From Demequina lutea (GTDB lineage: Bacteria > Actinomycetota > Actinomycetes > Actinomycetales > Demequinaceae), in assembly GCF_013409005.1 (NCBI RefSeq), contig NZ_JACBZO010000001.1, forward strand, positions 310,001 through 374,000: a stretch of DNA of 64,000 nt. Reading direction: 5' to 3'. Both the position numbers and the translations under genes were made by a program. Position 1 is the first letter of the stretch, and the number at the start of each line of letters is the position of its first letter. Shown here piece by piece: positions 6,650-55,828 of this stretch. The notes below the pieces were generated by a model that saw only the letters and a list, made by a program, of their open reading frames with translations, was not told the DNA's origin and searched no databases.

Positions 6650-6668
6650 GATGGATGGAGCAATCACC

Positions 6669-38222: not shown

Positions 38223-38238
38223 TGAGGCCTCCTTGCCC

Positions 38239-38267
38239 ACTTGTGCAGCCATACTATACAACTTGTG
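38239..38267 (-). promoter_or_regulatory. Promoter of KPR1-SDR operon with flanking ACTTGTG repeats
   Basis: A minus-strand -10 TATAGT (38253-38258) is bracketed by ACTTGTG at 38239-38245 and 38261-38267, 22 bp apart. The nonamer CACTTGTGC (38238-38246) recurs in the M24 promoter at 47308-47316. This suggests a regulator shared across the locus; the -35 is weak. Confidence 0.45.
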
Positions 38268-38284
38268 AAGTCCTGCCACGCAAG

Positions 38285-39481: not shown

Positions 39482-40921
39482 ATGGCTACCAGCATCCCAG
39501 CCGCCCACCCGGAAGACTTCACCCCGGGTCGCCCTGTCGTGTTCCGCAACGCGACGGTGATCACGGTTGACACCCCCGGAATCATCCAAGGCGGTGACGT
39601 GCTCATCGCTGACGACAAGATCGTGTCAGTCGGAGTGGGCCTCGCCGTACCGGAAGGAACTGTCGAGATCGACGCGACGGGCGGCATCCTCATGCCCGGA
39701 ATGGTCGACACCCACCGCCACATGTGGCAGACCGCCCTGCGGGGCTACGGCGGCGACTGGGCACTCAGCCAGTACTTCGTCTTCTACTACCTGCAGCACG
39801 GCCAGGTCTTCCGTCCGGAAGACATCTACGCAGGCAACCTGCTGAGCGCCCTCGAGTCGGTCGATACCGGCGTGACGACGACGCTCGACTGGTCTCACGC
39901 TCTTCGCACGCCGGATTACGCCGATGCCGCGGTCCAGGCCTTCAAGGAGATCCCCGGCCGGTTCGTGCTCGGCTACGGCAACTACCTCGGCGCGCCCTGG
40001 GAGTGGACCGCGGACCCGACCTTCCGCACGTGGGTCAAGAATCACCCCCAGACCGACATGCTCGGCCTGCAGATCGCGTTCGACGTCCCCGACTCCGAGG
40101 ACTTCCCCGAGAAGGCGGCCTTCGACTTCGCGCGTGACAACGGCCTGCGCGCCACGACCCACGCTGGCGTCTGGGGTGCGACGACCGACGTGGGTCTCGG
40201 CCACATGTACAAGGCCGGCGTGATGACCGACCAGATCACCTACGTGCACTCCGCCACCCTGTCTCCGGACAGCTACCACAAGATCGCGGCCACCGGCGGG
40301 ACCGTCTCGGTCTCGACCGAGAGCGAGCAGAGCGCGGGCCAGGGTTATCCCTCCACGTGGGAGCTGCGCAAGTACGGCATCCCGGCATCCCTGTCGATGG
40401 ACACGAGCGTGTGGTGGAGTGCCGACTTCTTCTCCGCCATGCGTGCAACCCTGAGTTCCGACCGTTCGCGTGAGCACCTTGAGGCCCAAGCCAAGGGCGA
40501 CACGGTCAACGTCAACCAGTTGCGTGCTGAAGACGTGATCTGGATGGCAACCATGGGTGGCGCGAAGTCGCTCGGCATGGAAGGCAAGATCGGTTCGATC
40601 ACGCCCGGCAAGAAGGCGGACCTGCTGCTCATCAAGAACGACCAGTCACCCGCTATGACGCCGATCCTCAACCCGACTGCGCACGTCGTGTACCAGGCGG
40701 GCACGGCCGACATCCACACGGTGGTCGTCGACGGCCGCGTGCTCAAGTTCGATGGCAAGCGCATCGGCCTCGACATCGCCCCCGCGCGCGACGCGGTCGC
40801 GAAGTCGGTGGAGTACGTGCGCTCGCAGTTGGGCGAGGAGGCGTGGGAGGAGGGCATGCACCCTGAGCTCACCCCCACGGAGCGCATCCCCAACCCCTAC
40901 GGATACCAGGACGAGGAGTGA
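39482..40921 (+). CDS. Amidohydrolase-superfamily protein, TrzA/ATZ-like (deaminase or hydrolase)
   Basis: 479 aa. A beta-sandwich N-terminus (VVFRNATVITVDTPG) leads to the metal site MVDTHRHMWQ (His78, His80). Further ligands are His in ATTHAGVWG, His in VHSATLS and Asp in SMDTSVW. The C-terminus returns to the sandwich: GSITPGKKADLLLI. This is the mononuclear-metal subgroup that deaminates or dechlorinates aminoheterocycles (guanine, S-adenosylhomocysteine, triazines). Substrate unknown. First of a three-gene operon with the Dabb protein and alcohol dehydrogenase. Confidence 0.88.
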   Translation: MATSIPAAHPEDFTPGRPVVFRNATVITVDTPGIIQGGDVLIADDKIVSVGVGLAVPEGTVEIDATGGILMPGMVDTHRHMWQTALRGYGGDWALSQYFVFYYLQHGQVFRPEDIYAGNLLSALESVDTGVTTTLDWSHALRTPDYADAAVQAFKEIPGRFVLGYGNYLGAPWEWTADPTFRTWVKNHPQTDMLGLQIAFDVPDSEDFPEKAAFDFARDNGLRATTHAGVWGATTDVGLGHMYKAGVMTDQITYVHSATLSPDSYHKIAATGGTVSVSTESEQSAGQGYPSTWELRKYGIPASLSMDTSVWWSADFFSAMRATLSSDRSREHLEAQAKGDTVNVNQLRAEDVIWMATMGGAKSLGMEGKIGSITPGKKADLLLIKNDQSPAMTPILNPTAHVVYQAGTADIHTVVVDGRVLKFDGKRIGLDIAPARDAVAKSVEYVRSQLGEEAWEEGMHPELTPTERIPNPYGYQDEE

Positions 40922-41241
40922 TCGCGCACGTGGCCGTGTTCACCTTCGGCCCCGAGATGACCGAGGAGCGCACGGAGGCACTCGCCGTGGAACTGCGCGC
41001 TATGGCGTTGCGCATCCCGTCGATCAAGCGCTACACCGCTGGCCCCAACCTGCGAATGCGACCCGGCGGAGCCGACTTCGGTGTCGTCGCGGTGCTCGAA
41101 GACCAAGCGGGAATTGACGCATACCTCGACTCGCCCGACCACGTCGACCTCGTCACGACGAGCATCGCGCCATTCCTTGTCCAACGTCAGGCCGTTCAGG
41201 TCGAACTGCCGGACGATTGGGCGCCACTTTGGGAGGGATAA
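40918..41241 (+). CDS. Dabb-domain (stress-responsive A/B barrel) protein
   Basis: 107 aa, GTG start overlapping the amidohydrolase stop (GTGA). Single ferredoxin-like domain beginning IAHVAVFTFGPEMTEE, with FGVVAVLEDQAGIDAYLDSPDH, the usual Dabb pattern. Members include small lyases and cyclases acting on dearomatised or beta-keto substrates as well as proteins of unknown role. Tight coupling suggests work on the same substrate as the amidohydrolase. Confidence 0.82.
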   Translation: MIAHVAVFTFGPEMTEERTEALAVELRAMALRIPSIKRYTAGPNLRMRPGGADFGVVAVLEDQAGIDAYLDSPDHVDLVTTSIAPFLVQRQAVQVELPDDWAPLWEG

Positions 41242-41243
41242 CC

Positions 41244-42317
41244 ATGAAGGCAGCGGTCTACCGCGGCATGCGCGACGTGCAGGTGCAGGAGTGGCCGGCG
41301 CCGGTTCCCAGCGCCGGTGAGGTGCTCATCCGCATTGCGGCAGCCGGCATTTGCGGTTCTGACGCCGCCGAGTTCAGCCTGGGGCCGCAGCTAGTGACGC
41401 AGGGTGCCGACGGACACGTCGACCCCGTGATCCTCGGCCACGAGTTCGCGGGAACCATTGAGGCCGTCGGCGACGGAGTGAACGGCTTTGAGGTGGGCGC
41501 CCGCGTCGTCTGCGGCGCGGGCATCTCTTGCGGGGAGTGCGTCATGTGCCGTCGCGGCCGGACCAACCTTTGCCGCAGCTACCACACCGTGGGGTTTCAC
41601 AAGGATGGCGGTCTTGCGGGCTACGTCGTCGTTCCGGCGAGCATTGTGTTCGACGCGTCCGCCTCGGGACTGCCGCTCGACACCCTTGCGCTCGCCCAGC
41701 CGATGGCGATCGCCGTGCACGCCGTGCGCCGAAGTGGTCTCACCGCTGGGCGCGACGCCGTGATCGTGGGTGTGGGAGGCATCGGCGCCTTCCTCACCTT
41801 TGCTGCGGTCGCGACCGGAGCGCGCGTGTTGGTGGTCGACCTTGACCCGGCGCGGCTCGAGCTCGCGAAGACCCTCGGGGCGTTCGCGACGATGCGGGCG
41901 GGCGACGGCACGATCGCCGAGCGGCTCGCCGAGCTGGGCATGGAAGCCGAGGTGTTCTTCGAGGTGAGTGGCTCGGCCCCCGGGCTCGAATCGGTGCTTG
42001 CGGCGGCACAGCCGGGCGCCGTGATCGTGCCCGTCGGCATTCAGAAGCGACCGCAGCCTGAACCGCTCGGCGGCTGGACCCTGCGCGAGTACACGATCGT
42101 CGGCACAGTCGCGCTCGTGTTCGCTACCGATCTGCCCGAGGCCGTGCGGCTGCTCGGTCTTCGTCCCGACTGGACGGACTTCACGCGAGAGGTCATCCCG
42201 CTCGAATCTCTCGTCGTTGACGGGCTCGAACCTCTCGTCGCGGGCCATTCACGACAGATCAAGACCCTCATCGATCCCTGGATCAACGCGCCCCGCGCGC
42301 CCGTGCACACCCCGTAG
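41244..42317 (+). CDS. Zinc-dependent alcohol dehydrogenase (2,3-butanediol/threonine/sorbitol dehydrogenase type)
   Basis: 357 aa from ATG 41244 (GGGAGGG upstream). MDR family: catalytic Cys37 in GICGSD and His66-Glu67 in GHEFAG; structural zinc Cys96, 99, 102 and 110 (CGECVMCRRGRTNLC); NAD motif GVGGIG. Pattern fits polyol or 2,3-butanediol dehydrogenases. In the locus it could convert a hydroxyl to a ketone, feeding the acetoin-type E1-E2. A terminator hairpin follows. Confidence 0.87.
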   Translation: MKAAVYRGMRDVQVQEWPAPVPSAGEVLIRIAAAGICGSDAAEFSLGPQLVTQGADGHVDPVILGHEFAGTIEAVGDGVNGFEVGARVVCGAGISCGECVMCRRGRTNLCRSYHTVGFHKDGGLAGYVVVPASIVFDASASGLPLDTLALAQPMAIAVHAVRRSGLTAGRDAVIVGVGGIGAFLTFAAVATGARVLVVDLDPARLELAKTLGAFATMRAGDGTIAERLAELGMEAEVFFEVSGSAPGLESVLAAAQPGAVIVPVGIQKRPQPEPLGGWTLREYTIVGTVALVFATDLPEAVRLLGLRPDWTDFTREVIPLESLVVDGLEPLVAGHSRQIKTLIDPWINAPRAPVHTP

Positions 42318-42440: not shown

Positions 42441-42502
42441 TTCACTAGTACTAAACAAAAATGTAATCTGTGGTTGACACTGTGAAGTGCCACTCCTACC
42501 AT
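42441..42502 (+). promoter_or_regulatory. Importer promoter with shared 17-bp motif
   Basis: TTGACA (42474-42479) and TACCAT (42497-42502) are 17 bp apart. Just upstream, TTCACTAGTACTAAACA (42441-42457) matches the M24 promoter motif (47306-47322) at 15 of 17 positions. The motif could itself be an alternative -35 (TTCACT) with TGTAAT at 42462-42467, 15 bp on. It probably binds a regulator encoded in the locus. Confidence 0.6.
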
Positions 42503-42585
42503 GGCAAGAGCACTCCGAAGCGCCGCAACGACGCGGCAGCATGGCTGTTGATTCAGTCGATGAAGAGAAAAGGAAAGCGAACGCC

Positions 42586-43644
42586 ATGGTCAAACACAGC
42601 TCCTTAGTCCGATCGGCGGTCCTGCTCGCGGCGACGTCTCTCGCGCTCGCCGGATGCAGCAGCGGAGCGGCGAGCACCTCGTCGCCAGCCGCCTCGTCGC
42701 CAGGCACCACCTCGCCGAGCACCTCGCCGGCGAGCACCACGCCGTTGGAAATCGCCTACATGTCGTTCGCGGTGGCCAATAGCTACGACGCACCGATGCT
42801 GGCGGCGGCTCAGGCAGAAGCGGCCAGCTCGAACGCGACGCTCACGGTCTTTGACGCGAACAACGATCCGCAGGTCCAGTTCACGCAGCTCCAGAATGCG
42901 ATCGCGTCGGGCAAGTACCAGGGCATCATCACCCAGCCGATCCTTGGCCCAGGGTTGGTGAGCCTCGTTGAGCAGGCCATCGCCAAGGGGATCAAGGTTG
43001 TGAACATCGACCAGATCCTCGGGGCGGACCTCACGACCGACAAGCCCCAGGTAACGGGACTCTCGGCCAACGTGACCTTCGTGCCGACGACGATCGGCCA
43101 GCAGCTCGGCGAGCAGGTCGTCGCCGCGTGCGCCGCGGACAAACTGGACCCGTGCAACGTGGGCTACCTCTACGACATCAAGGCCTCGTCGCTCGATATT
43201 GCTATCCATAAGGCATTCGTCGCGGCGATCAGCGCCACGCCCTCGATCAAGGTCGTCGCGGAGGGTGAGGACTTCTTCACCCCGGCGGTCGGACTCACCG
43301 CGGTGCAGAACATGCTCCAGTCGAACCCGGACATGAATCTCATCGCGGGAAGCGATCAAGGTTTGGAAGGAGCGATCCAGGCGCTCGCCGCGGCCAAGAA
43401 GACGGTCGCGATGGTCGGATTCGGTGCGAGTGAGGCCGGCATTGCCGGCGTCAAGTCCGGTGCGATCTTCTCCGAGGTCGCCCAGATGCCTGCATCCGAA
43501 GGGAAGCTCGGTGTCCGGGCCCTCATCGCCGCCATCCGCACGGGAACGGACGGGGGTGCGATCAACCCGGTTGCGAGCCTGCCGAACAACGGGATCGTGA
43601 CCAAGGCCACGGCCACCACCTTCGCGCCGGAGTGGGCCGGTTAA
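42586..43644 (+). CDS. Ribose-type ABC transporter substrate-binding lipoprotein
   Basis: 352 aa from ATG 42586 (GGAAAG upstream); ATG 42541 is an in-frame alternative. Signal peptide with lipobox LAGC, a Ser/Thr/Pro linker, then a type I sugar-binding fold: LEIAYMSFAVANSYDAPMLAAA, IITQPILGP, VVNIDQILGAD, and DQGLEGAIQAL. Similar proteins bind ribose, xylose, polyols or autoinducer-2. Its ligand is presumably the entry substrate of the locus. Confidence 0.88.
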   Translation: MVKHSSLVRSAVLLAATSLALAGCSSGAASTSSPAASSPGTTSPSTSPASTTPLEIAYMSFAVANSYDAPMLAAAQAEAASSNATLTVFDANNDPQVQFTQLQNAIASGKYQGIITQPILGPGLVSLVEQAIAKGIKVVNIDQILGADLTTDKPQVTGLSANVTFVPTTIGQQLGEQVVAACAADKLDPCNVGYLYDIKASSLDIAIHKAFVAAISATPSIKVVAEGEDFFTPAVGLTAVQNMLQSNPDMNLIAGSDQGLEGAIQALAAAKKTVAMVGFGASEAGIAGVKSGAIFSEVAQMPASEGKLGVRALIAAIRTGTDGGAINPVASLPNNGIVTKATATTFAPEWAG

Positions 43645-43694
43645 TGGAGGGTTCCCTCTTCGGCCATCCCAGCACGAGAAGAAAGTAACGGGAC

Positions 43695-45212
43695 ATGACT
43701 GCGTCGTTCTCCCCCGACCCGCACATCGAACTGACCGATATCGTCAAGACATTCGGCGGTGTGACCGTGCTGTCCGACATCACGCTCACCATCGAGCGCG
43801 GAACGGTTCACGGGTTGGTCGGGGAGAACGGCGCGGGCAAGTCCTCACTCAGCAAGATCATCGCAGGACTGCTGGTAGCGGATGGCGGCCAACTCCGTGT
43901 CAACGGGGAGCAGGTGAGCTTCCGCTCACCGCGGGAAGCCCTCGGCCACGGCATCGCCACCATCGCCCAGGAACTGGCGCTCGTCCCCGGCCTTACGGTC
44001 GCCGAGAACGTCTTCCTCGGATCCGAACCGAGGAAGGCGAGCTTCGTGCGCCGCCGGGAGCTCAAGACACGGTTCCGCGCGCTTGCGGAGGAGGCGGGCT
44101 TCGATCTGCCGGCGGATGCCATGACCGGCTCCCTGCGCACGGCGGACCAGCAGAAGGTCGAGATCCTTCGCGCGCTGTCCCGTGGCGCGGACCTCATCAT
44201 CATGGACGAGCCGACGGCGGCCCTGTCGCGAGAGGATGCCGAAAAGCTTCACGGAGTCGTGCGTTCCCTGGCCGCCACGGGTCACACCGTCCTGCTGATC
44301 TCTCACTTCCTGTCCGAGGTGCTCGCGCTCTCGGACACGGTGACTATCCTCCGCGACGGGCAACTGGTGCGGACGGGGGCGAGCGCGGACGAGACCGAGG
44401 CGACCCTCATCGAGGGCATGCTCGGTCGCACCCTCACCTCCGTCTTCCCACCGAAGACCCCGCCGGCGGCGGATGCCCCGCCGGCGCTCGCCGTTCGTCA
44501 TCTGACGGCGCCCGGCGTCTCGGACGTCTCCTTCGATGTCAAGGTGGGGGAGATCGTCGGGCTCGCAGGTCTCGTTGGCGCCGGACGCAGCGAACTCGCC
44601 CACGCGATCTTCGGCGCGAGCAGGCGATCGGCCGGCGAGATCGCGGTGCTGGACAAGCCGCTCACCGGGAGGTCGCCCTCACGCTCCCTGCGTCAGGGCG
44701 TCTTCCTGATTCCGGAGTCGCGGAAGGAGCAGGGACTCCTGCTGCTGCGCCCCATTCGGGAGAACGTCACCCTTGCTGGCCTTCGTCTCTTCAGCAAGGG
44801 AACCTGGATTCGCCGCACACTCGAGGACACAGCCACCCGGCGTGCGCTCGACGAGGTGACGGTGAGGGGCGAAAGTTCCTCGCGCCCGGTCGCGGCCCTC
44901 TCCGGAGGCAACCAGCAGAAGGTCATGTTCGCGCGCGGGCTGCTCCATCGACCCCGTGTGCTCATCGCGGACGAACCGACCCGCGGTGTCGACGTCGGGT
45001 CCCGCCGTGCCATCTACGACCTGTTGGCTGAGAACGCCCGGCGTGGAGTGGGAGTACTGGTCATCTCCTCCGACATCGAGGAGGTCCAGGGGCTCGCCCA
45101 CCGCATCTACGTGATGCGACAGGGTCGCATCACAGCCGAACTAACCGGCGAAGACATGACCGAATCGAACATCCTCGTCGCCGCCTTCGCGGATGAAAAG
45201 GTGAACATATGA
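43695..45212 (+). CDS. Ribose-type ABC transporter ATP-binding protein (double ATPase)
   Basis: 505 aa. First domain: Walker [10 protein letters not shown], Walker B LIIMDEPTAAL, with signature region GSLRTADQQ degenerate. Second domain: P-loop GLVGAGRSE, signature LSGGNQQK, Walker B VLIADEPTRGVD. RbsA/MglA-like arrangement. Overlaps the permease start by ATGA. Confidence 0.92.
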   Translation: MTASFSPDPHIELTDIVKTFGGVTVLSDITLTIERGTVHGLVGENGAGKSSLSKIIAGLLVADGGQLRVNGEQVSFRSPREALGHGIATIAQELALVPGLTVAENVFLGSEPRKASFVRRRELKTRFRALAEEAGFDLPADAMTGSLRTADQQKVEILRALSRGADLIIMDEPTAALSREDAEKLHGVVRSLAATGHTVLLISHFLSEVLALSDTVTILRDGQLVRTGASADETEATLIEGMLGRTLTSVFPPKTPPAADAPPALAVRHLTAPGVSDVSFDVKVGEIVGLAGLVGAGRSELAHAIFGASRRSAGEIAVLDKPLTGRSPSRSLRQGVFLIPESRKEQGLLLLRPIRENVTLAGLRLFSKGTWIRRTLEDTATRRALDEVTVRGESSSRPVAALSGGNQQKVMFARGLLHRPRVLIADEPTRGVDVGSRRAIYDLLAENARRGVGVLVISSDIEEVQGLAHRIYVMRQGRITAELTGEDMTESNILVAAFADEKVNI

Positions 45213-46201
45213 GTCCCCAAGCCATAAGCGTCTCCGGGCTGAAGGCCAGCATGTCCGAGCGAAGGTGGTTCCGCCCGGGATCGTGGCGCTCCGTCGCCAT
45301 CTTGATCCCGTTCTTGGTCCTGTTCGTCGTGCTGTCCGTCGGCAGCCCATGGTTCTTCAACACGACGAACCTGCTCAACATCCTGAGCCAGCAGTCGGCG
45401 ACCCTGATCATCGCCGCGGCCGGAACGCTCGTGCTCATCAGCGGGGGAATCGATCTGTCCGTCGGGGCGACCTACGCGCTCGCCGGCGTGGTCTCCGCAC
45501 AGGTTGCGCTCGCGCACGGCGTCGTCGTCGCCGTGATCGTGTCTCTCGTGGTCGGGCTGTTCGTCGGACTCACCAACGGCGTCATCAGCACGCTGTTCCG
45601 CATCAACCCGCTCATCGCCACCCTCGCGATGTCGTTCATCGTCAGCGGCATCGGCAGCAGCATCTCTGGCGGCAACCTGATCGTTCTCACCAACGAGCCC
45701 AGCTTCGCGGCCATCGCCCAGACGGAGATCCTTGGCGTGCGCACCTCCATCTGGATCGCGCTCGTGGTCGTCTTTGTGCTCGGCCTGCTGCTCGCGAGGA
45801 CGACGAACGGACGGTATCTCTACGCCGCAGGCGGCAACGCCGAGGCCTCTCGCCTGGCCGGCATCCGCGTCAACTGGGTGCGCATGCTCGCCTTCACGCT
45901 CAGCGGGGGCGCTGCCGCGCTCGGAGGAATCATCGACACGTCGCGTGTGCTGAGCGCGCAGTCGTCCTCGGGCACGTCCCTCACCTTCACGGTTCTCGCC
46001 GGGATCGTTGTCGGCGGGACGTCCATCCTCGGTGGCGAGGGCGCGATCTGGCGCACCGTCACCGGCGTGCTGTTCATTGCGCTGGTCGGCAACGGATTCG
46101 ATCTGCTCGGCATCAACGTCCTCTATCAGCAGATCGCGCTCGGCGTCATCCTGCTGGTGGCTGTCGGCATCGACGCGTGGTCGCGGGTGCTTCGGCGGTA
46201 G
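45209..46201 (+). CDS. Ribose-type ABC transporter permease
   Basis: 330 aa, RbsC length, with about ten hydrophobic segments. Conserved GGIDLSVGATYALAGV and the C-terminal VVGGTSILGGEGAIWRTVTG are present. It completes a three-part importer with the two genes upstream; only one permease gene is found, as usual for homodimeric RbsC-type channels. Confidence 0.92.
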   Translation: MSPQAISVSGLKASMSERRWFRPGSWRSVAILIPFLVLFVVLSVGSPWFFNTTNLLNILSQQSATLIIAAAGTLVLISGGIDLSVGATYALAGVVSAQVALAHGVVVAVIVSLVVGLFVGLTNGVISTLFRINPLIATLAMSFIVSGIGSSISGGNLIVLTNEPSFAAIAQTEILGVRTSIWIALVVVFVLGLLLARTTNGRYLYAAGGNAEASRLAGIRVNWVRMLAFTLSGGAAALGGIIDTSRVLSAQSSSGTSLTFTVLAGIVVGGTSILGGEGAIWRTVTGVLFIALVGNGFDLLGINVLYQQIALGVILLVAVGIDAWSRVLRR

Positions 46202-46376: not shown

Positions 46377-47093
46377 TCAGGCGCGGAGGTCGTCCATTGC
46401 CTGCAGCACATCGACTGCGGAGGTCAGTGGGGCGTCGGAGCCGCGCGAGAGCGACGAATCAACCCCGGTAGCACTCGGCATTGCCTGGTTCTGCTGGCGG
46501 CGACCCACCACAAACCAGATGCCTCGCGCGACGACATCGCCCTTGTTGGAGTACATGTGCGGTCGCACCGAATCGAACTGCAACGAGTCGCCCGGCTGTA
46601 GCACGTGGGTCGTGAACTCGAGTTGGAGGGTGATCTCGCCCTCGAGAATGTAGGCGTATTCGAGACCCGAGTGGCGCATGAGCCGGCCTTCGACGGAGCT
46701 CGTAGCCCCCGGATCGTAGCTCACGAGGAGGGCATCGGCCGGTCCGCCTTCGCCGACGGCCAGATGTTCCCAGCGCACGCCGTTCTCCATCTCGAGTACG
46801 GGGTTCTCGGGGCCGCGCTGTACGGCAGGCTCGGCCGATCCTGTTTTGCCGGAAGCGGCAGAATCTGGGGAACCTAAATCGACCACCGGAGCGGTGACTC
46901 CCATGAGCCCGTCCATCGAGATGCCCAAATGGTTGGCGAGTGCGTAGAGGGTAGACACCGAGGGCTGAGTCTTGCCGGTCTCTACCTGCGAAATCAGGCT
47001 TGCCGAGACTCCCACCGCCTGCGCAACACTGCGAAGGCTCATTCCGCGCAGCGTGCGCGCCTCTCGCAACCGCACTCCGAATTCCGCAGCCAT
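46377..47093 (-). CDS. XRE-family regulator with C-terminal cupin domain
   Basis: 238 aa from ATG 47093, 6 nt after GAGGGG; ATG 47099 is an alternative. HTH at residues 5-60 (LREARTLRGMSLRSVAQAVG...SQVETGKTQPSVSTLYALA). A Gly/Ser/Pro linker leads to a cupin (HSGLEYAYILEGEITLQLE, LQPGDSLQFDSVRPHMYSN). Such proteins sense a small molecule, often an amine or amino-acid-like compound, in the cupin. It lies between the importer and M24 genes and faces two direct repeats in its own promoter. Confidence 0.9.
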   Translation of the reverse strand: MAAEFGVRLREARTLRGMSLRSVAQAVGVSASLISQVETGKTQPSVSTLYALANHLGISMDGLMGVTAPVVDLGSPDSAASGKTGSAEPAVQRGPENPVLEMENGVRWEHLAVGEGGPADALLVSYDPGATSSVEGRLMRHSGLEYAYILEGEITLQLEFTTHVLQPGDSLQFDSVRPHMYSNKGDVVARGIWFVVGRRQQNQAMPSATGVDSSLSRGSDAPLTSAVDVLQAMDDLRA

Positions 47094-47127
47094 GTGCATC
47101 CCCTCTACATCGGGTTGAAATGCCCTC

Positions 47128-47159
47128 TGCACACTGTATCAAGCGAGGGTGCACACTGT
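47128..47159. promoter_or_regulatory. Direct repeats upstream of the XRE-cupin gene
   Basis: TGCACACTGT occurs at 47128-47137 and 47150-47159, start-to-start distance 22 bp (two helical turns). Possible autoregulatory sites for the XRE-cupin protein. Confidence 0.5.
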
Positions 47160-47370: not shown

Positions 47371-48762
47371 ATGCGTAACACTGACACCACTGGTACCACA
47401 GCGGTCGACTGGGAGCAGAGGATCAATTTCGATCGCCTCCGCTCGGAGCGTCTTGCACGAATTAAGGCAGAACTCAACCGTTCCGACATGGGCGCCGTGC
47501 TCGCCTTCGACTTCTCCAACATCCGGTACATGACCTCGACCCACATCGGCACGTGGGCGATGGACAAGCTCATCCGCTTCAGCCTCCTCACGCGCGAGAC
47601 CGACCCAATCTCGTGGGACTTTGGTTCGGCCGCCAAGCACCACGCTCTTTACAACCCGTGGCTGGATGTCACGACCGCAGAGGCAGACGCCGACCCCCAC
47701 GCCCCCCACCACGGAGCCACGCGCCCGCGTCTCGAATCGGGCGCGCGCGCCGGCATCTCAACCCTGCGCGGTGCGTTCAACCCCGACGCCGAGATCGCCC
47801 AGAAGCTCGCCGCCAAGATCAAGCGCGAACTCGACAAGTTCGGTGTCGCCGACCAGCCGCTAGGCGTCGACGTGATCGAGCTGCCCGTCCTCTTCGCGCT
47901 GCAGCAGCTCGGCATCGAGGTGGTCGACGGCCAGCAGCTGTTCATGGAGGCCCGCCGCATCAAGACCGCCGACGAGATCGGGCTGCTCACGCAGGCCGCG
48001 TCGATGGTGGACACCGCCTACGACGAGCTCTACACCTTCCTGCGCCCCGGTGTGCGCGAGAACGAGGCCGTCGGCCTCGTGGCGAAGACTCTCTACGACC
48101 TCGGCTCCGAGTACGTGGAAGGCGTCAACGCCATCTCCGGTGAGCGCTGCTCGCCGCACCCCCACGTCTTCTCTGACCGCCTCATCCGCCCGGGTGACCC
48201 GGCCTTCTTCGACATCCTGCACAGTTTCAACGGCTACCGCACCTGCTACTACCGCACGTTCGCAGTCGGGTCGGCGAGCTCGGCACAGCGCGACGCCTAC
48301 ACGCGAGCACGCGAGTACATCGACTGGGCGATCGCCCTCGTCAAGCCCGGCGCGACCACGGCAGACATCGTGAGCGTGTGGCCCACAGCGCAGGAGTTTG
48401 GGTTCGAGGACGAGGAAGCCGCCTTCGGGTTGCAGTATGGTCACGGCGTCGGGCTCTCCATCTGGGAGAAGCCCATCTTCTCCAGGCTCGTCTCTCTCGA
48501 CCACCCCGAGGTGCTTGAAGAGGGCATGGTCTTCGCGCTCGAGACCTATTGGCCGTCGGCCGATGGCTGGGGTGCCGCGCGCATCGAAGAAGAGGTTGTG
48601 GTGACCGCAGACGGCTGCGAGGTGATCACGAAGTTCCCGGCCGAGGAGCTCCTGGTCGCGGGTCAGCGCTACTACACCGTCGGGGGAACGCTCAACTCGA
48701 TCCGTGACTCGCAGTCGCACCTCAACACGTCCGCGGGCCGCGGCGAGACCCCGGCCCCCTGA
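47371..48762 (+). CDS. M24-family enzyme (creatinase/DddP/ectoine-hydrolase fold) with altered metal site
   Basis: 463 aa from ATG 47371 after GGGAGGATTCC. N-terminal creatinase domain (residues 20-195), then the pita-bread M24 domain. Expected metal ligands are Asp281 (FFDILH), His358 (QYGHGVG), Glu391 (ALETYW) and Glu406-408. The second Asp (the D of GYxxDxTR) is Cys292 in GYRTCYYRTF. A normal dinuclear peptidase site is therefore doubtful; non-peptidase M24 enzymes such as creatinase or DddP are better analogues. It has a paralogue at the left edge and a convergent dehydrogenase at its 3' end. Confidence 0.85.
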   Translation: MRNTDTTGTTAVDWEQRINFDRLRSERLARIKAELNRSDMGAVLAFDFSNIRYMTSTHIGTWAMDKLIRFSLLTRETDPISWDFGSAAKHHALYNPWLDVTTAEADADPHAPHHGATRPRLESGARAGISTLRGAFNPDAEIAQKLAAKIKRELDKFGVADQPLGVDVIELPVLFALQQLGIEVVDGQQLFMEARRIKTADEIGLLTQAASMVDTAYDELYTFLRPGVRENEAVGLVAKTLYDLGSEYVEGVNAISGERCSPHPHVFSDRLIRPGDPAFFDILHSFNGYRTCYYRTFAVGSASSAQRDAYTRAREYIDWAIALVKPGATTADIVSVWPTAQEFGFEDEEAAFGLQYGHGVGLSIWEKPIFSRLVSLDHPEVLEEGMVFALETYWPSADGWGAARIEEEVVVTADGCEVITKFPAEELLVAGQRYYTVGGTLNSIRDSQSHLNTSAGRGETPAP

Positions 48763-48777: not shown

Positions 48778-49653
48778 CTAGGCCGTGTGGCCGCCGCCCC
48801 TGGAAATCTCCGCGATCGCCGACCAGTCGGCACCGGCGAGCTCCGGGTTCGCGACCGCTCGCTCGAACACGTCGCGCAGTGCGGGAGATGTCGGCAGGGC
48901 AAGTCTCACTTCGGCCGCGGCTACCTCGGCGAGCGCGAGGTCTTTCAGCCCCAGTTCGACGGTGAATCCCGCCGGCCGGTAGCTGCGCTCGGCGATGATC
49001 TTTCCGTAGCCGGGGTACACGACACCGCCGAACAGGGTGCTGCCGAGCAGTTCGACGAACTCGCCGGCATCCACGCCGTAGCGTTCGACGAGGGCCACGG
49101 ATTCGCCCATTGCCTCGAGGGCGCCAATGATGTTGTAATTCACGGCGATCTTCACGACGTTGGCCGACGCCGGGTCGACACCTAAGTTCCAGGTGCGCAC
49201 GCCGAGCACGGCGAGGTAGGGCTCGAGGCTCGCGACAACGTCCGCTGGCCCTGCCACGAGAATGTTGAGTTTGCCCGCGGCCGCCACCTGCGGTCGCCCC
49301 AGCACGGGCGCGGCAATGTAGGTCACTCCCGCGGCACGCGCCCGCTCGGCGAGGCGCGAGGCGAGGCCGCCGCTGATCGTGCCCATATTCACATGGACGC
49401 GACCGGCCTCACCCTCGAGGGCCTGTGCCGACAAGGTTGCGTCGGCCGCTTCATCATTCGCAAGCATCGAGAAGCTGAGAGGCCGCGCCAGGGCCTCGCG
49501 CGCGGTATCCACGCGCACTGCCCCCGCCTCGACGAGGGGTGTCGCGGCCTCGGGGGAGCGGTTCCAGACCGCGACATCGTGGCCGGCCCCCACGAGTCGC
49601 CCGGCGATGCCGGAGCCCATCGTGCCCAGTCCGAGGAATCCGATCTCAGCCAT
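48778..49653 (-). CDS. Beta-hydroxyacid dehydrogenase (3-hydroxyisobutyrate dehydrogenase family)
   Basis: 291 aa from ATG 49653. Rossmann motif GLGTMG (residues 8-13), then AAPVLGRPQVAAAGKL in place of the usual SPVSGG, and the catalytic KIAVNYN (KxxxN). Last gene of the minus-strand group VOC, GntR, ALDH, dehydrogenase; starts 2 bp after the ALDH stop. Diverged from the left-edge family member but with the same M24 neighbour relation. Confidence 0.87.
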   Translation of the reverse strand: MAEIGFLGLGTMGSGIAGRLVGAGHDVAVWNRSPEAATPLVEAGAVRVDTAREALARPLSFSMLANDEAADATLSAQALEGEAGRVHVNMGTISGGLASRLAERARAAGVTYIAAPVLGRPQVAAAGKLNILVAGPADVVASLEPYLAVLGVRTWNLGVDPASANVVKIAVNYNIIGALEAMGESVALVERYGVDAGEFVELLGSTLFGGVVYPGYGKIIAERSYRPAGFTVELGLKDLALAEVAAAEVRLALPTSPALRDVFERAVANPELAGADWSAIAEISRGGGHTA

Positions 49654-49655
49654 GC

Positions 49656-51032
49656 CTAGCCCTTCCACACGGTCTTCAGATTGCAGAACTCCCGGATGCC
49701 CGCGGCCGCGAGTTCGCGGCCGTAGCCCGAATCCTTGATGCCGCCAAAAGGCAGTTCGGGGTAAGAGACGGTCATCCCGTTGACGAACACGGCGCCGGCG
49801 TCGATCGAGCGGATGAACCACGCCTCCTCGTCGGCGTTGGTCGTCCACACGGCACTCGACAGCCCGAACGTCGTCTGGTTTGCGACGCGCACGGCCTCCT
49901 CGCGGTCGGCCACTCTGTAGAGCGTCGCGACGGGGCCGAAGGCCTCCTCCATCACCAGCCGCGCGTCGTCGGCGAGGCCGACGATAAGCGTGGGGCTGTA
50001 GAACCAGCCCGGGCGGTCGGGAGCCGATCCCCCTGCGAGCACCATCGCGCCCCTGGCAACGGCGTCGTCGACGAGTCCGGCCAGCTCGTCGCGGCCAGCC
50101 TCCGTGGCGAGGGGCCCGACGTCGGTGGTCGGGTCGAGCGGGTCGCCCACCACGAGTGCGGCCATCTTGGAGGCGAACAGGCCCACGAACTCGTCGTAGA
50201 CCTCGGCGTGCACGATGAACCGCTTGGCGGCGATGCACGACTGTCCGTTGTTGCCCACGCGCGCCTTCACCGCGATCGTGGAGGCGGCATCGAGGTCGGC
50301 CGAGGGCATGACGATAAAGGGGTCGGAGCCGCCGAGTTCGAGCACGGCCTTCTTGATGTGGCTACCGGCGGTGGAGGCGACGGAGCGGCCCGCGGGCTCA
50401 GACCCGGTGAGGGTGACCGCCTTCACGCGCGGATCCTCAAGCACGTGCGCGACCTCGCGCGCACCAATGAGCAGGGTGCGGAACGACCCCTTGGGGAACC
50501 CGCCGCGCTCAAAGAGGGCGTCGAGGTACAGTGCCGCCTGCGGAACATTCGAGGCGTGCTTGAGCAGCCCCGTATTGCCGGCCATGAGGGCGGGGGCCGC
50601 GAAACGGACCACCTGCCACAGCGGGTAGTTCCACGGCATGACCGCGAGTACCACTCCCAGCGGCTCGTACCGGGTGTGCGCGTGCGAGGCGCCGACGCTG
50701 GCGGGGTCGTCCAGAACCTCGTCGGCGAGAAAGCCCTCGGCATGCTCGGCGTAGAAGCGCATGTTCTTGGCGCACTTGAGCACCTCGGCCCTGGCCTGAG
50801 CGAGCGGCTTGCCCATTTCGAGGGTCAGCATGCGGGCGGTGGCCTCGACCTCCGCTTCGAGCACGGCGGCGGCTGCCACCATCCACTCCGCTCGCTGCGC
50901 GTAGGTCGTGGCCTTGAGCACGAGATGGGCGGCCTGCGCCTCGCCGATGCGGCGCTCGACCTCGGCCGCATCGTGCGGCTCGAAGGTGGCGAGGGTCTCG
51001 CCCGTCGTCGGGTTGATGGTCGCGATTGCCAT
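49656..51032 (-). CDS. NAD(P)-dependent aldehyde dehydrogenase (succinate-semialdehyde type)
   Basis: 458 aa. Catalytic Glu232 in LELGGSDP and Cys266 in GNNGQSCIAAKR, and the cofactor region VMPWNYPLWQ. Length and GQSC/AAKR context fit GabD-like NAD(P)-dependent semialdehyde dehydrogenases. It would oxidise an aldehyde intermediate, for example one released by a dehydrogenase or an acetoin-type cleavage (inference). Confidence 0.9.
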   Translation of the reverse strand: MAIATINPTTGETLATFEPHDAAEVERRIGEAQAAHLVLKATTYAQRAEWMVAAAAVLEAEVEATARMLTLEMGKPLAQARAEVLKCAKNMRFYAEHAEGFLADEVLDDPASVGASHAHTRYEPLGVVLAVMPWNYPLWQVVRFAAPALMAGNTGLLKHASNVPQAALYLDALFERGGFPKGSFRTLLIGAREVAHVLEDPRVKAVTLTGSEPAGRSVASTAGSHIKKAVLELGGSDPFIVMPSADLDAASTIAVKARVGNNGQSCIAAKRFIVHAEVYDEFVGLFASKMAALVVGDPLDPTTDVGPLATEAGRDELAGLVDDAVARGAMVLAGGSAPDRPGWFYSPTLIVGLADDARLVMEEAFGPVATLYRVADREEAVRVANQTTFGLSSAVWTTNADEEAWFIRSIDAGAVFVNGMTVSYPELPFGGIKDSGYGRELAAAGIREFCNLKTVWKG

Positions 51033-51046
51033 GGTGCTCCTGGGGG

Positions 51047-51733
51047 CTAGTGGGTTTCGGAGAAGACTTCGGGATGCCGCGCAAGTTCGAGCCGCGTGCG
51101 GCGAATGTGGCCCGCGAGCACGCGCTCCGCCTCGTCGAGGTCACGTCGCCGAATGGCGGACACCAACAGGTGGTGCTCGTAGTGCACGCTTTGGTCGTTT
51201 CCCCTGCTAAACACATGCATGAACGCGCGGCGGTAGTGATGCGTACGGTTCCACAGCCGCAGCACCGTGTCGCCTAGCACGTTGGTCTGCGCGACGCCGT
51301 ACATCGAGAGGTGAAACTGGCGGTCGAGCGTGATGAAGCCCTCGATGTCGGCCGAGAGTTCCATCTGCATCGCGAGCGCCTCGAGTTTGTCGATGGACTC
51401 GTCGCTCAGCAGCGGCACGTTGAAGCGCAGCAGCAGGGGCTCGATGCGCTCGCGAATCTGGTACATCTCCTCGCACTCGGCGAGGCTCAGGCGCGATACC
51501 CATGCACCCGTATTGGCGACCACCGTGACGAGCCCCTCGCCCTCGAGCGCGCGCAGTGCCTCGCGTACGGGCAGGCGGCTCGCGCCATGCCGGTCGGCGA
51601 GTTCTTCCTGTCGGATGCGCGCACCGGGCTCGTACTCTCCGGCGAGAATCGACTTACGCAGGACGTCCGCGATACGTGATCCCGCGGCCCCGTGCGGCGC
51701 CGGCTCCAGGGTAGGTACTTGCTCTGAACTCAT
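51047..51733 (-). CDS. GntR-family regulator, FCD (FadR) subfamily
   Basis: 228 aa from ATG 51733, overlapping the VOC stop (ATGA). Winged helix with EYEPGARIRQEELADRHGASRLPVREALRALEGEG (residues about 35-70), then an all-helical FCD domain with conserved Asp/His metal residues (LDRQFHLSMYG, YEHHLLVSAI). FCD regulators bind organic acids. It probably controls its own operon and the divergent E1-E2 operon. Confidence 0.9.
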   Translation of the reverse strand: MSSEQVPTLEPAPHGAAGSRIADVLRKSILAGEYEPGARIRQEELADRHGASRLPVREALRALEGEGLVTVVANTGAWVSRLSLAECEEMYQIRERIEPLLLRFNVPLLSDESIDKLEALAMQMELSADIEGFITLDRQFHLSMYGVAQTNVLGDTVLRLWNRTHHYRRAFMHVFSRGNDQSVHYEHHLLVSAIRRRDLDEAERVLAGHIRRTRLELARHPEVFSETH

Positions 51734-52245
51734 GGATGCCACAGTTTCACATCCGCGCCCGCCTCGTAGGCCTTGCCGCCGGGAAAACTCACGAGCTCGA
51801 ACTGCATGCCCCACGGGCTACGGAAGTACTGCCAGCGCTGGCCCTCGGCGGGTCCCGCGCTCGCGATGGGCGAGCCCATGAGCTCGATGTCGTGGGCGCG
51901 CAGGTGGGCGATCGCGGCATCCATGTCGTCGACGTAGATCGCGAGGTGGTGGCCGCCGATGTCGCTGTTGCGCGGCTGAGACGCCTGGCCATCGGCCGCG
52001 TCGTAGAGAAAGGTCTCGATGTTGCTGCCGTTGCCGAGCCGGTAGAACCGGATCTCCTTGATGACGGTGCGCGGGTGCACGCCCAGGGTCACCGCCATCC
52101 AGTCGTCCTCGGCACTCTTGGCGCCAAGAGTGTAGATGTGCTGGGCGCCGAGGATGTCGACGAGGAAGCGTTCGGCCTGGTCGAGGTCGGGCACGGTGAT
52201 GCCAATGTGGTCGATGCCCCGCATGCCGGGTAGCCCGAGTGCCAC
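51730..52245 (-). CDS. VOC-family protein (glyoxalase/dioxygenase fold)
   Basis: 171 aa from GTG 52245 after AAGGAG. Two beta-alpha-beta-beta-beta modules: GIDHIGITVPDLDQAERF with a metal His, and GGHHLAIYVDDMDAAIAHL, then WQYFRSPWGMQFELVSF with the Glu ligand. Members isomerise, cleave or dioxygenate small molecules. First of the minus-strand operon; coupled to the regulator gene. Confidence 0.85.
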   Translation of the reverse strand: MALGLPGMRGIDHIGITVPDLDQAERFLVDILGAQHIYTLGAKSAEDDWMAVTLGVHPRTVIKEIRFYRLGNGSNIETFLYDAADGQASQPRNSDIGGHHLAIYVDDMDAAIAHLRAHDIELMGSPIASAGPAEGQRWQYFRSPWGMQFELVSFPGGKAYEAGADVKLWHP

Positions 52246-52318
52246 GGCGACTCCTTTGTCTATTGGATACAGTGTGACTCAAAGTGGCCGCAAATTCCAG
52301 CCTTTCGCTAGAAAAGGG

Positions 52319-52348
52319 ATTGTATTGGCGACAATCTAGGCGTATCGT
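52319..52348 (+). promoter_or_regulatory. Leaderless promoter of E1-E2 with FCD-type operator
   Basis: TTGTAT (52320-52325) and TATCGT (52343-52348) are 17 bp apart; the -10 ends 7 nt before ATG 52356. ATTGT (52319-52323) and ACAAT (52331-52335) form an inverted repeat with a 7-bp centre over the -35, the TTGT-n-ACAA layout of FadR-type operators. A related TGTCTATTGGATACA lies near 52257 by the VOC start. Confidence 0.6.
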
Positions 52349-52355
52349 GCTCGAC

Positions 52356-54545
52356 ATGCCACGACAAAGACGTCTGACCACTGGTGTTGACTGGATCGAG
52401 ATCTCGACGACTGCCGCGGATTGGAAGGCTGCCGACCCCGCGCTGCTCGGCACCATGCTCACGCAGCTGCACCTCATCCGCGCGTTCGAGGAGACGGTGC
52501 TGGAACTCGCGGGCGAAGGCCTCGTGCACGGGCCTGCGCACTCGAGCATCGGCCAGGAGGGCGGGGCGGTCGGTTCGATCGTCGGGCTTCGGTCGACCGA
52601 TGCCGTGAATGGCTCCCACCGCGGGCATCACCAGTTTCTCGCCAAGGCCCTCACGCACGTCTCGGGCGGCACCATGGATCCCAACGCCGACGTCGATGCG
52701 CGCGTGCAGGAGGTGTTGCAGCGCACCCTCGCCGAGATCCTCGGCCTGTCGCAGGGCTACTGCCGCGGCCGCGGCGGCTCGATGCACCTCCAGTGGTTCG
52801 AGGCCGGCGCGCTCGGCACCAATGCGATCGTCGGCGGTGGCGCGCCCTCGGCCGCCGGCAACGCCTGGGCCCAGAAGCACGCGGGCACGACCGACCTCAC
52901 CATCAACTACTTCGGCGACGGCGCCAGCCAGATCGGCTCCGTGCTCGAGTCGATGAACCTCGCCGCGGCCTGGAAGCTGCCGGTCTGCTTCTTCATCGAG
53001 AACAATCTCTACGCCGTCTCCACCTCCGCCGCCGAGATCAGCGCCGACCCGCGCTTCTCGGTTCGCGGCCAGGGCTTTGGCATCCCGTCCTGGCGCGTCG
53101 ACGGCATGGACCCTCTCGCCGTGCATCTCGCGATGGAGGCCGCCGCAGAGCGACTGCGTTCCGGCGAAGGCCCCACGATCATCGAGGCCGAGGTCTACCG
53201 CTTCTTCCACCAGAACGGCGCCTACCCCGGTAGTGCCTTTGGCTACCGCACCAAGGAAGAGGAAGCCGCGTGGCGTGCCCGCGACCCGCTCGACCGCGTA
53301 GCGGCCGAGATGACCAAGCTCGGCCTCATCGATGCGGCGGGGGTGGCAGCGCTGCGCGAGCGGGCGCAATCCGCCATCGCGACCGCCGCCGCCGAACTGC
53401 TGGAGGCCGACCCCGACGCCGAAGGCAAGCGCCGCATCAGGCCCTCCCTCTGGCCCGATGTGAGCTTTGTCAACGTGGGGGTGCGCGGCGACGGCAGCGA
53501 GCTCAAGTCGCTCACGGTTGCCGATCCGGTCGACTACACGGGCGCGTCCCGCGATCTCAAGTTTGTGGACGCCGTGGCAACGGTCATGGACCGCCGCATG
53601 GAGCGGGACCCGCGCATCGTCGTGCTCGGCGAGGACGTGCATCGCCTCAACGGCGGAACGAACGGCGCCACCAAGGGCCTCGCCAAGAAGTACGGGCCGG
53701 AGCGCGTCATGGGCACCCCGATCAGCGAGAACGCCTTCACTGGTCTCGCCGAGGGACTCGCGCTCGACGGCCGCTTCCGCCCCGTGGTCGAGTTCATGTA
53801 TCCCGACTTCATGTGGGTCGCGGCCGACCAGGTCTTCAACCAGATCGGCAAGGCACGGCACATGTTTGGTGGCGACAACCCCGTTCCGCTCGTGTTGCGC
53901 ACGAAGATCGCCATGGGATCGGGATACGGCTCGCAGCACCTCATGGACCCGGCAGGCATCTTCGCCACGAGCCCGGGCTGGCGCATCGTTGCCCCGTCCA
54001 CGGCCGCCGACTACGTGGGACTCATGAACGCCGCCCTCGCCCTGCAAGACCCTGTGCTCGTGATCGAGCACGTGGACCTCTACGGCACCATGGACACGGT
54101 TCCCGAGGGTGACCTCGACTACATCCTGCCGCCGGGCAAGGCCGCGCTTCGGCGCACCGGCTCCGACGTCACGGTGATCAGTTATCTCTCGATGGTGAAG
54201 CACTGCATCGAGGCCCTCGACCAGACGGGGGTGGACGCAGACCTCATCGACCTGCGCTGGCTCGACCGCGCCTCCCTCGACTGGGACACGATCGGCGAAT
54301 CCATCAAGAAGACCAACGCCGTGCTGATTGTGGAGCAGGGCTCGCAGGGCACGTCCTACGGTGCCTGGCTGTCCGACGAGATCCAGCGCCGCTTCTTCGA
54401 CTGGCTCGACCAGCCCATCGAACGCGTCACGGGAGCCGAGGCAAGCCCGAGCATCTCGAAGGTGCTCGAGCGCGCCGCCATTGCCCGCACGGAAGAGGTC
54501 GTCGCCGGCCTCGAGCGCGTACGTCTTGGAATGGGCGACCGCTGA
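52356..54545 (+). CDS. Thiamine-dependent 2-oxoacid/acetoin dehydrogenase E1, fused alpha and beta subunits
   Basis: 729 aa from ATG 52356; no Shine-Dalgarno, but the promoter places the transcript start at this ATG. Residues 1-330 form the alpha part (HGPAHSSIGQEG; RGRGGSMHLQ; the thiamine motif GDGASQIGS ending ENNLYAVST). From about 415 the beta part follows (KFVDAVATVMDRRMERDP, LGEDVHRLNGG, PISENAFTGLAEGLA, transketolase C-domain at the end). It decarboxylates a 2-oxoacid or cleaves an acyloin and passes the acyl group to the E2 encoded next. Fusion of the subunits is less usual. Confidence 0.9.
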   Translation: MPRQRRLTTGVDWIEISTTAADWKAADPALLGTMLTQLHLIRAFEETVLELAGEGLVHGPAHSSIGQEGGAVGSIVGLRSTDAVNGSHRGHHQFLAKALTHVSGGTMDPNADVDARVQEVLQRTLAEILGLSQGYCRGRGGSMHLQWFEAGALGTNAIVGGGAPSAAGNAWAQKHAGTTDLTINYFGDGASQIGSVLESMNLAAAWKLPVCFFIENNLYAVSTSAAEISADPRFSVRGQGFGIPSWRVDGMDPLAVHLAMEAAAERLRSGEGPTIIEAEVYRFFHQNGAYPGSAFGYRTKEEEAAWRARDPLDRVAAEMTKLGLIDAAGVAALRERAQSAIATAAAELLEADPDAEGKRRIRPSLWPDVSFVNVGVRGDGSELKSLTVADPVDYTGASRDLKFVDAVATVMDRRMERDPRIVVLGEDVHRLNGGTNGATKGLAKKYGPERVMGTPISENAFTGLAEGLALDGRFRPVVEFMYPDFMWVAADQVFNQIGKARHMFGGDNPVPLVLRTKIAMGSGYGSQHLMDPAGIFATSPGWRIVAPSTAADYVGLMNAALALQDPVLVIEHVDLYGTMDTVPEGDLDYILPPGKAALRRTGSDVTVISYLSMVKHCIEALDQTGVDADLIDLRWLDRASLDWDTIGESIKKTNAVLIVEQGSQGTSYGAWLSDEIQRRFFDWLDQPIERVTGAEASPSISKVLERAAIARTEEVVAGLERVRLGMGDR

Positions 54546-55828
54546 TGGCCACCATCATCCGCATGCCGGCAGTGAGCGCGGGCAGTGACGAGGCCGCCAT
54601 CCAGACGTGGCTCGTCGCGCCCGGCCAGACCCTCACAGTCGGCCAGCCGCTCGCCGAAATCGAAACCGAGAAGGCCGTCGTCGAGTATGCCGCCGAGATC
54701 GAGGGCACGGTGCTCAAGCTGCTCGCGGCCGAGGGCGTGGCGGTGAATGTTGGCGACCCCATCGCGGTGGTGGGGGCCCAGGGCGAGAGCGCCGACGACG
54801 CGGAACTCGGCCCGGCGGCATCGGCTGTCGCGGAAACCCAGGCGGTCGACGGTCCCCCAGTGGTCGTGGAGACCCAGGCGGTCGACGTCGCCCCGGTAGT
54901 TGCCGACGCCCCGGTATCCGAGCGCGTCGCGACCCCCTCCCGGCAGTTCGCCAGCCCTATCGTGCGCCGTCTCGCGAAGGAGCGCGGACTCGACCTCACC
55001 ACCGTCGTGGGATCGGGTCCGGGCGGGCGGGTGGTGCGCCGCGATCTCGACTCGCTGCCGACTACTGCGGCCGCAGCACCCATACCAGCAGCACCCGTAC
55101 CAGCATCGGCCGCAGCATCGGCCGCCGCGCCCGTCGTCGCCGCCAGAGCCGGAACTGTCGAGGTGCCCCACACCGGGATGCGTCGCGCGATTGCCCGTCG
55201 CCTTACCGAGAGCAAGTCGACGGTGCCGCACTTCTACCTCGTGGCCGACTGTCAAGTGGACCGCCTGGTCGCGCTGCGCAAGGAGGTCAACGAGTCTTCG
55301 CCCGTCAAGGTGTCGCTCAACGACTTCGTCCTCAAGGCCGCAGCCGCCGCATTTGTCGATGTTCCCGAGGCGAATGCCACGTGGGGCGAGACGGCCGTGA
55401 CGCGGTACTCCACTGTCGACATGTCGGTCGCCGTCGCGATCGACGGTGGACTCGTGACGCCCGTGCTGCGTTCGGTCGAATCCCAGACGCTCACCGAGAT
55501 CGCGCTCAACGTCGCCGACATCGCCCAGCGCGCCCGGGCCGGTCAACTGAAGCAGCACGAGCTCGAGGGCGGCAGTTTCGCCGTCTCCAACCTCGGCATG
55601 TACGGCGTCACCGAGTTCTCGGCGATCATCAACCCGCCGCAGTCCGCGATCCTTGCGGTCGGTCGCGCTCGCCCGGAGGCGGTCGTCGTCGATGGCGCTC
55701 TCGAGGTGGGCACGATCATGACCGTCACGCTCTCGGCCGACCACAGGGTGCTCGATGGCGCGCTCGCGGCACAGTGGCTCGCGGCGTTCGTGAGGCGCAT
55801 CGAGAGCCCTCTCGGGATGCTCGTCTAG
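54545..55828 (+). CDS. Dihydrolipoamide acyltransferase E2 component
   Basis: 427 aa, starting one base inside the E1 stop (TGATG). Lipoyl domain with Lys43 in ETEKAVVEY; an Ala/Pro/Val linker; peripheral-subunit-binding domain ASPIVRRLAKERGLDLTTVVGSG (residues about 138-165, split motif); catalytic domain ending in DHRVLDGALAAQWL with the active His. It transfers the acyl group to CoA. No dihydrolipoyl dehydrogenase (E3) gene is near, so a housekeeping E3 is presumably used. Confidence 0.92.
   Translation: MATIIRMPAVSAGSDEAAIQTWLVAPGQTLTVGQPLAEIETEKAVVEYAAEIEGTVLKLLAAEGVAVNVGDPIAVVGAQGESADDAELGPAASAVAETQAVDGPPVVVETQAVDVAPVVADAPVSERVATPSRQFASPIVRRLAKERGLDLTTVVGSGPGGRVVRRDLDSLPTTAAAAPIPAAPVPASAAASAAAPVVAARAGTVEVPHTGMRRAIARRLTESKSTVPHFYLVADCQVDRLVALRKEVNESSPVKVSLNDFVLKAAAAAFVDVPEANATWGETAVTRYSTVDMSVAVAIDGGLVTPVLRSVESQTLTEIALNVADIAQRARAGQLKQHELEGGSFAVSNLGMYGVTEFSAIINPPQSAILAVGRARPEAVVVDGALEVGTIMTVTLSADHRVLDGALAAQWLAAFVRRIESPLGMLV

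Follow-up and report, generated by a model that had tools for sequence, protein, structure and literature searches.

The window analysed here, a stretch of 64,000 nucleotides from Demequina lutea, encodes a creatinase-type M24 protein in which Cys292 occupies the position of the second metal-binding Asp of the family. By sequence and phylogeny, the protein belongs to a distinct clade of M24B proteins that carry Cys in place of the bridging Asp, and the gene neighbourhood of these proteins is catabolic. The function that we propose, tentatively and with confidence a little short of even, is that of a non-peptidase M24B enzyme of small-molecule catabolism that would hold a single metal ion in the tight site through the Cys thiolate.

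The M24 protein and its Cys292

The open reading frame encodes 463 amino acids between an ATG start and a TGA stop, and the sole Pfam match of its product is Peptidase_M24 (PF00557), at 129.9 bits against a gathering score of 23. The AF2 model (mean pLDDT 81.1, pTM 0.82; 67.9 to 81.1 over the five models) is a metal-free monomer, with the loop 256-266 under pLDDT 50, and has the creatinase-type two-domain fold. Both the Pfam score and the pita-bread fold place the protein in peptidase family M24. In Foldseek and VIA-align comparisons DddP, prolidases, EutD and creatinase all score similarly, so that the fold alone names no function.

In Escherichia coli aminopeptidase P (AMPP), according to an excerpt of a paper on human aminopeptidase P (PMC5774706), the tight site is made up of Asp271, Glu383, His354 and Glu406 and the loose site of Asp260, Asp271 and Glu406. 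Cys292 stands at the column of Asp271, the residue common to both metals. In an alignment with the prolidase 5cdl, GYRTCYYRTF of the window protein lies opposite GYNSDMTRT; over the longer stretch, FFDILHSFNGYRTCYYRTFAVG opposite TIDMGARLGGYNSDMTRTVAVG, D281 corresponds to the first Asp and Cys292 to the second. The two residues are 11 positions apart, as are Asp260 and Asp271 of AMPP. D281 and C292 are modelled in successive strands (277-286 and 289-299), and H358, E391 and E406, which fall on the His/Glu/Glu ligand columns of the alignments, in strands 356-359, 387-395 and 402-412. Where M24 metallopeptidases have the five ligands Asp-Asp-His-Glu-Glu, the window protein reads Asp-Cys-His-Glu-Glu. 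The initial annotation had placed Cys292 at the second Asp in the motif GYRTCYYR, and the TGC codon and the 5cdl alignment bear this out. Its list of retained ligands stands for D281, H358, E391 and E406, but E407 and E408, which it had also included, are neighbouring residues outside the ligand columns. All positions are collected in Table 1.

Table 1. Features of the window. Coordinates are window positions; homologue counts are numbers of loci among the best 80 of 589 relatives.
Feature	Coordinates	Strand	Basis or remark
Second Cys-type M24 gene, 5' part	1..391	-	55-58% identical; G000:C1:309147-310391, runs off the left edge
ApbA/ketopantoate-reductase-like dehydrogenase	37191..38753	-	homologue 12/80
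Amidohydrolase, PRK08204-like	39482..40921	+	367 bits vs cut-off 391; homologue 45/80
Zinc-type alcohol dehydrogenase	41217..42317	+	homologue 26/80
Ribose-type ABC importer: binding protein, ATPase, permease	42487..46201	+	ATPase homologue 34/80
XRE-type HTH plus cupin regulator, PuuR-like (below cut-off), divergent from M24 gene	46377..47132	-	homologue 59/80
Creatinase-type M24 protein, Cys292 at second-Asp ligand position	47371..48762	+	Pfam, alignments, AF2, tree
D281 codon	48211..48213	+	AMPP Asp260 position, loose-site ligand (excerpt of PMC5774706)
Cys292 codon TGC	48244..48246	+	AMPP Asp271 position, ligand of both metals (alignment)
H358 codon, metal-ligand column	48442..48444	+	alignment
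E391 codon, metal-ligand column	48541..48543	+	alignment
E406 codon, metal-ligand column	48586..48588	+	alignment
HIBADH/2-hydroxy-3-oxopropionate-reductase-like dehydrogenase (below cut-offs)	48778..49656	-	homologue 24/80
Succinic-semialdehyde-dehydrogenase-type aldehyde dehydrogenase	49656..51032	-	NF006915, 756 bits > cut-off 730; homologue 12/80
GntR-family regulator, true start probably inside listed ORF	51047..51814	-	homologue 21/80
VOC-family protein	51730..52245	-	homologue 24/80
2-oxo-acid dehydrogenase E1, alpha and beta in one ORF	52284..54545	+	E1 homologue 49/80
E2 acyltransferase, 2-oxo-acid dehydrogenase complex	54545..55828	+	homologue 19/80

Codon 292 is TGC in the window gene and in all three near orthologues compared (L002, L078 and L079), against which dN/dS is 0.033/0.61, 0.025/0.81 and 0.078/1.08, respectively; the gene is under purifying selection. 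C292, D281, H358, E391 and E406 are all invariant columns in an alignment of 33 sequences that range from 94 to 34% identity to the window protein. A scan of genome contigs with two peptide patterns, of which the best 80 of 589 relatives were used, gave D-C-H-E-E in 80 of 80 loci, a figure biased by the presence of the Cys in one of the two patterns. Two motif-free genome searches with the protein as query yielded 38 new loci, best-scoring matches only, one of them being this genome's own paralogue, and D-C-H-E-E was found in every one. Plasmid records were matched as well (120 at 1e-20 and 250 at 1e-10), and among the 15 examined the best match has Cys in ten and Asp in five (L068-L072). A sequence error or private mutation is ruled out by the TGC of the orthologues together with the 80/80 (best of 589) and 38/38 loci. 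The conservation within a subfamily that the initial annotation proposed to look for is evident across the 33-sequence alignment and the motif-free loci, and its proviso that the Cys might be confined to this genome is disposed of by the latter.

The Cys clade and its Asp-type relatives

A maximum-likelihood tree of 69 rows was built from the best match per locus at 1e-8 or better and the four other M24 proteins of the genome; L001, L041 and L042, copies of rows already present, were left out. Set A3 comprised 60 sequences, the window protein and 59 of the 77 listed references, eight matches having been skipped for stops, X or length. A single branch of the tree, with support of 95/85, sets all 47 Cys rows apart from the rest. 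This branch between Cys and Asp recurs in 94% of the 200 bootstrap trees, and when the Cys/Asp labels are shuffled on the 69-row tree a mean of 18.9 changes is needed. The tree program warns of long branches joining, both inside the Cys clade and elsewhere, and the root is placed at the midpoint; a single replacement of Asp by Cys, kept ever since, is therefore the simplest reading of the sequences and falls short of proof. As a working definition of Cys-M24 proteins we propose the pattern G[YF]xxC.YR[TSC] within one clade, to which 47 of the 47 rows conform.

The clade spans actinobacteria, Rhodobacterales and haloarchaea. Haloarchaeal members (L046, L067) have the motif GYRSCYYRTF, and subclades of 28-37% identity from the window's own phylum have GFKSCYYRTY/GFKSCVYRTY, GYMSCVYRTF, GYKCCVYRTF, GYKTCIYRTF, GYTACLYRSF/GYTTCLYRSF and GYKSCVYRTF. 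The spread is patchy: at an E value of 1e-40 the order yields matches in 11 of its 396 genomes and the class in 48 of 394. Several record titles call for comment. One locus titled Planococcus sp. APC 4015 (L103) is a stretch of 69.1% G+C with a Microbacteriaceae-like cluster, Planococcus being a low-G+C genus, and is possibly misassigned or contaminated; the titles of L128 and L143, Bifidobacterium breve MAGs, look doubtful. An M24 relative of 28% identity also occurs on an IMG/VR contig classed as viral (L158, 3001-4140).

DddP-like proteins retain Asp, as do the branches L057/L061/L062 and L063. The three members of the former branch, which have GYFVDFVR, group in the tree with neither DddP nor the Cys clade. 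A tblastn table had suggested the same Cys in the DddP-like L068/L072; this proved to be a gap artefact, as GMCADISRTW has an Asp two residues later, a point settled by the full sequences and an alignment with 4rzy.

D. lutea itself has six M24 proteins, of which the window protein and its paralogue are of the Cys type and the other four are of the Asp type, the latter providing a built-in contrast within one genome. The second Cys-type copy lies about 47 kb from the window M24 gene. It is found near a LIV-type ABC transporter (window positions 1-391 on the reverse strand and 5918-7481 on the forward strand; L040). Among the pattern-scan loci (best 80 of 589 relatives), six of 80 have a second M24 match nearby, as if both copies served one pathway; four of these second copies cover residue 292, and all four have Cys.

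A catabolic neighbourhood

The pattern-scan loci (best 80 of 589 relatives), many of them less than 21 kb long, were searched for markers drawn from the window genes and from annotated plasmid records, a match requiring 60 bits and each place counting for a single marker. Of these 80 loci (best of 589), 77 carry one or more of eight catabolic markers, the exceptions being L101, L127 and L134. The SDR marker was found in 43, the bicupin in 38 and a transporter marker in 44 of the 80 (best of 589). Among the distant Cys loci listed the E1 marker occurs in two of 13, both haloarchaeal, and in none of 11 Asp-type loci, several of which are short. Catabolic markers other than E1 do occur at some Asp-type loci. 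Since many of the markers belong to common protein families and the counts have no matched background, repeated gene order outweighs single marker counts. Similar sets of NCBI-annotated genes are found in Phaeobacter, Pacificitalea, Marinovum and a Streptomyces plasmid, and in part in haloarchaea. In the distant GFKSC subclade, the M24 gene of two loci is accompanied by genes of the HMGL-like, PEP-utiliser and Amidohydro_2 types, again catabolic enzymes. Because the sets of neighbours differ, the Cys clade probably does not carry out one reaction on one substrate. For the window protein, we infer a role in small-molecule catabolism from its clustering with a 2-oxo-acid dehydrogenase, an amidohydrolase, SDR, HIBADH and aldehyde dehydrogenases and an importer.

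The E1 component shows some variation. Its alpha and beta parts form one 753-residue ORF here and separate genes in Phaeobacter, Marinovum and haloarchaea. In a PDB search with the E1, pyruvate-type E1 ranked first and 2-oxoisovalerate-type E1 lower. Two Paenarthrobacter plasmids (L043, L074) carry Cys-M24 genes, that of L043 some 2 kb away from sulR, whose annotation is a sulfonamide-related flavin reductase.

Two pathways were considered for the cluster. Pantothenate catabolism, in which a hydrolase would be followed by the HIBADH-like, SSADH-like and branched 2-oxo-acid dehydrogenases, is attractive and is given low weight. No decarboxylating dimethylmalate-type dehydrogenase is found among the recurrent neighbours annotated, which are a part of all neighbours, and the literature search found no paper that links Cys-M24 proteins to pantothenate catabolism. 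A Rut-like heterocycle pathway, with a luciferase-like oxidoreductase, flavin reductase and RidA, was rejected as the core, since the luciferase-like protein is present in two and RidA in three of 80 loci (best of 589).

Function and the metal site

Most members of the clade in plasmid records go under the name "Xaa-Pro peptidase family protein" or "M24 family metallopeptidase", and the former name, found in many of these records, is in keeping with an ordinary Xaa-Pro peptidase in which the ligand change is tolerated. So too are the M24 fold and the four canonical ligand columns: the window protein shares the pita-bread fold and the N-terminal creatinase-type domain with Xaa-Pro dipeptidases and aminopeptidase P (Z up to 32.8), and the residues of 5cdl opposite its H263, H358, E391 and E406 are the same. 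It differs from them, however, in having Cys for the second Asp and L354 and W365 opposite two His of 5cdl, whose columns, matched through the 5cdl alignment, are those of H350 and H361 of AMPP, described in an excerpt of PMC5774706 as His of the peptide-binding site. None of the 47 Cys rows has His at column 354; column 365 is occupied by H in 22 rows, by W in 14 and by Y in 11. As the DddP-like Asp rows also have no such His pair, its loss marks non-peptidases and not the Cys clade as such. Every NCBIfam peptidase model scores below its cut-off (PepQ 74/630, PRK10879, an Xaa-Pro aminopeptidase, 33/465 and PRK09795 56/393), and the catabolic surroundings and the patchy spread (11/396 genomes of the order, 48/394 of the class) also speak against a peptidase, which we regard as very improbable. 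The location of the gene among genes for small-molecule breakdown likewise suggests that the product is probably not a peptidase. The peptidase names, given to members of a clade whose window representative is without peptidase features, are thus likely to be a systematic misannotation.

The best relative of the window protein both in NCBIfam and in a PDB profile search (E 1.3e-38) is DddP. The structures 4s00, 4s01, 4rzy and 4b28 match over both domains and share the H, E, E and first Asp columns with the window protein, and 4s01 superposes with a TM score of 0.72 and Z of 32.2. This likeness would accord with a DMSP-lyase-like eliminase that is functionally close to DddP and cleaves an onium compound. 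In contrast to the window protein, however, DddP retains the second Asp (AFDTDLIGSYGICVDISRTW) and Asp377, favoured as its catalytic base in an excerpt of the structure paper (PMC4108388). The window protein has Cys292 and W365 at these two columns, the Asp377 column being W, H or Y throughout the 47 Cys rows, and it scores 113.1 bits in the DddP model NF043017 against a cut-off of 600. A DMSP-lyase-like activity is on this evidence scarcely probable. The ectoine hydrolase models TIGR02993 (56.3/613 bits) and NF038259 (56.2/575 bits) also score far below their cut-offs. Ectoine hydrolase (DoeA/EutD, 6twj) and creatinase (1chm) resemble the window protein in fold (Z 30-32) and as M24 proteins that act on small molecules in catabolism. 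The EutD-like L005, by contrast, has lost its ligand columns (E/P/Y/I/S), whereas the window protein is changed at one only.

All 47 Cys rows retain the full tight-site set, C-H-E-E. The loose-site Asp, at the column of AMPP Asp260, is kept in 44 of the 47 and absent in three, which have W, W and N (L059, L060 and L064); these are distant (28-30% identity) and form one long-branched clade, and so represent one event. With their first Asp lost and C-H-E-E kept, the three are good candidates for a one-metal site. Ligand-less M24 members present a different picture. The columns read EPYIS in the ectoine-hydrolase relative L005 and EAYLS in its sister L004, and in EutD 6twj the two Asp positions are occupied by E and P; with H, E and E kept, the Cys clade is unlike these proteins. 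Judged from its residues, the Cys clade looks like a site in which the second metal has been given up or weakened and an oxygen ligand has been exchanged for sulfur.

According to the mechanism that we propose, a single metal ion, iron or zinc, would be held in the tight M24 site by Cys292, His358, Glu391 and Glu406. Asp281, released from its role in the loose site, could provide a base or shuttle protons, and a C-N or C-X bond in a small substrate would be polarised by the metal for hydrolysis or elimination. The fold put to use would be that of creatinase, ectoine hydrolase and DddP. The broader proposal, that a widespread M24 clade of bacteria and haloarchaea has a native thiolate ligand in a single Cys-His-Glu-Glu site and catalyses an undescribed step of an undescribed catabolic pathway ending in a 2-oxo-acid dehydrogenase, is possible, and we hold it with less assurance than the assignment made at the outset.

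Two other accounts of the site have to be weighed against a single thiolate-bound metal. Creatinase and ectoine hydrolase are M24 members that work without a metal, and Cys292 could similarly be the nucleophile or an acid-base residue of a metal-free catalyst. Its strict invariance in the active site resembles that of a nucleophile, and ectoine-hydrolase-like members with lost ligand columns have the same fold. Those ligand-less members read EAYLS and EPYIS, however, whereas H, E and E are kept in all 47 Cys rows, and a metal-free enzyme seems unlikely to us. One thiolate-bound metal is favoured over it because C-H-E-E is complete in 47/47 rows while the loose-site Asp is lost in 3/47. The same comparison counts against a two-metal enzyme, in which the Cys292 thiolate would bridge, D281 would hold the second metal and an ordinary dinuclear mechanism would run with a softer metal. 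A single sulfur, as a matter of general chemistry, moreover cannot replace both of the oxygen contacts available from an Asp. In favour of such a bridged pair, five metal-capable positions are present in 44 of 47 tree rows, in 80/80 pattern-scan loci (best of 589) and in 38/38 motif-free loci, and the closest solved relative by profile, DddP, is reported in an excerpt of PMC4108388 to be binuclear, mainly with iron; we consider this doubtful, with marginally more to be said for it than for the metal-free alternative.

The contention of the initial annotation that this is not an ordinary dinuclear aminopeptidase is supported by the clade-wide Cys, L354 and W365, the peptidase cut-offs missed and the catabolic surroundings. 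It had offered a mononuclear, thiolate-containing or metal-free catalyst instead; a thiolate-bound metal in the tight site now has a tentative preference over the metal-free option (47/47 against 3/47).

The Cys-M24 branch is widespread but little-studied. No description of it was found in a full-text literature search, which reached few subscription papers, and the word "metal" is absent from the text of PMC13188858. In textbooks M24 is a two-metal family, and proteins of this kind receive the name Xaa-Pro peptidase from genome pipelines on account of their fold. A swap of the bridging ligand that has been kept from actinobacteria to haloarchaea constitutes a natural experiment on a two-metal site turning into something else. 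The Cys-M24 clade also flags a recurrent catabolic cluster and what is likely to be a systematic misannotation.
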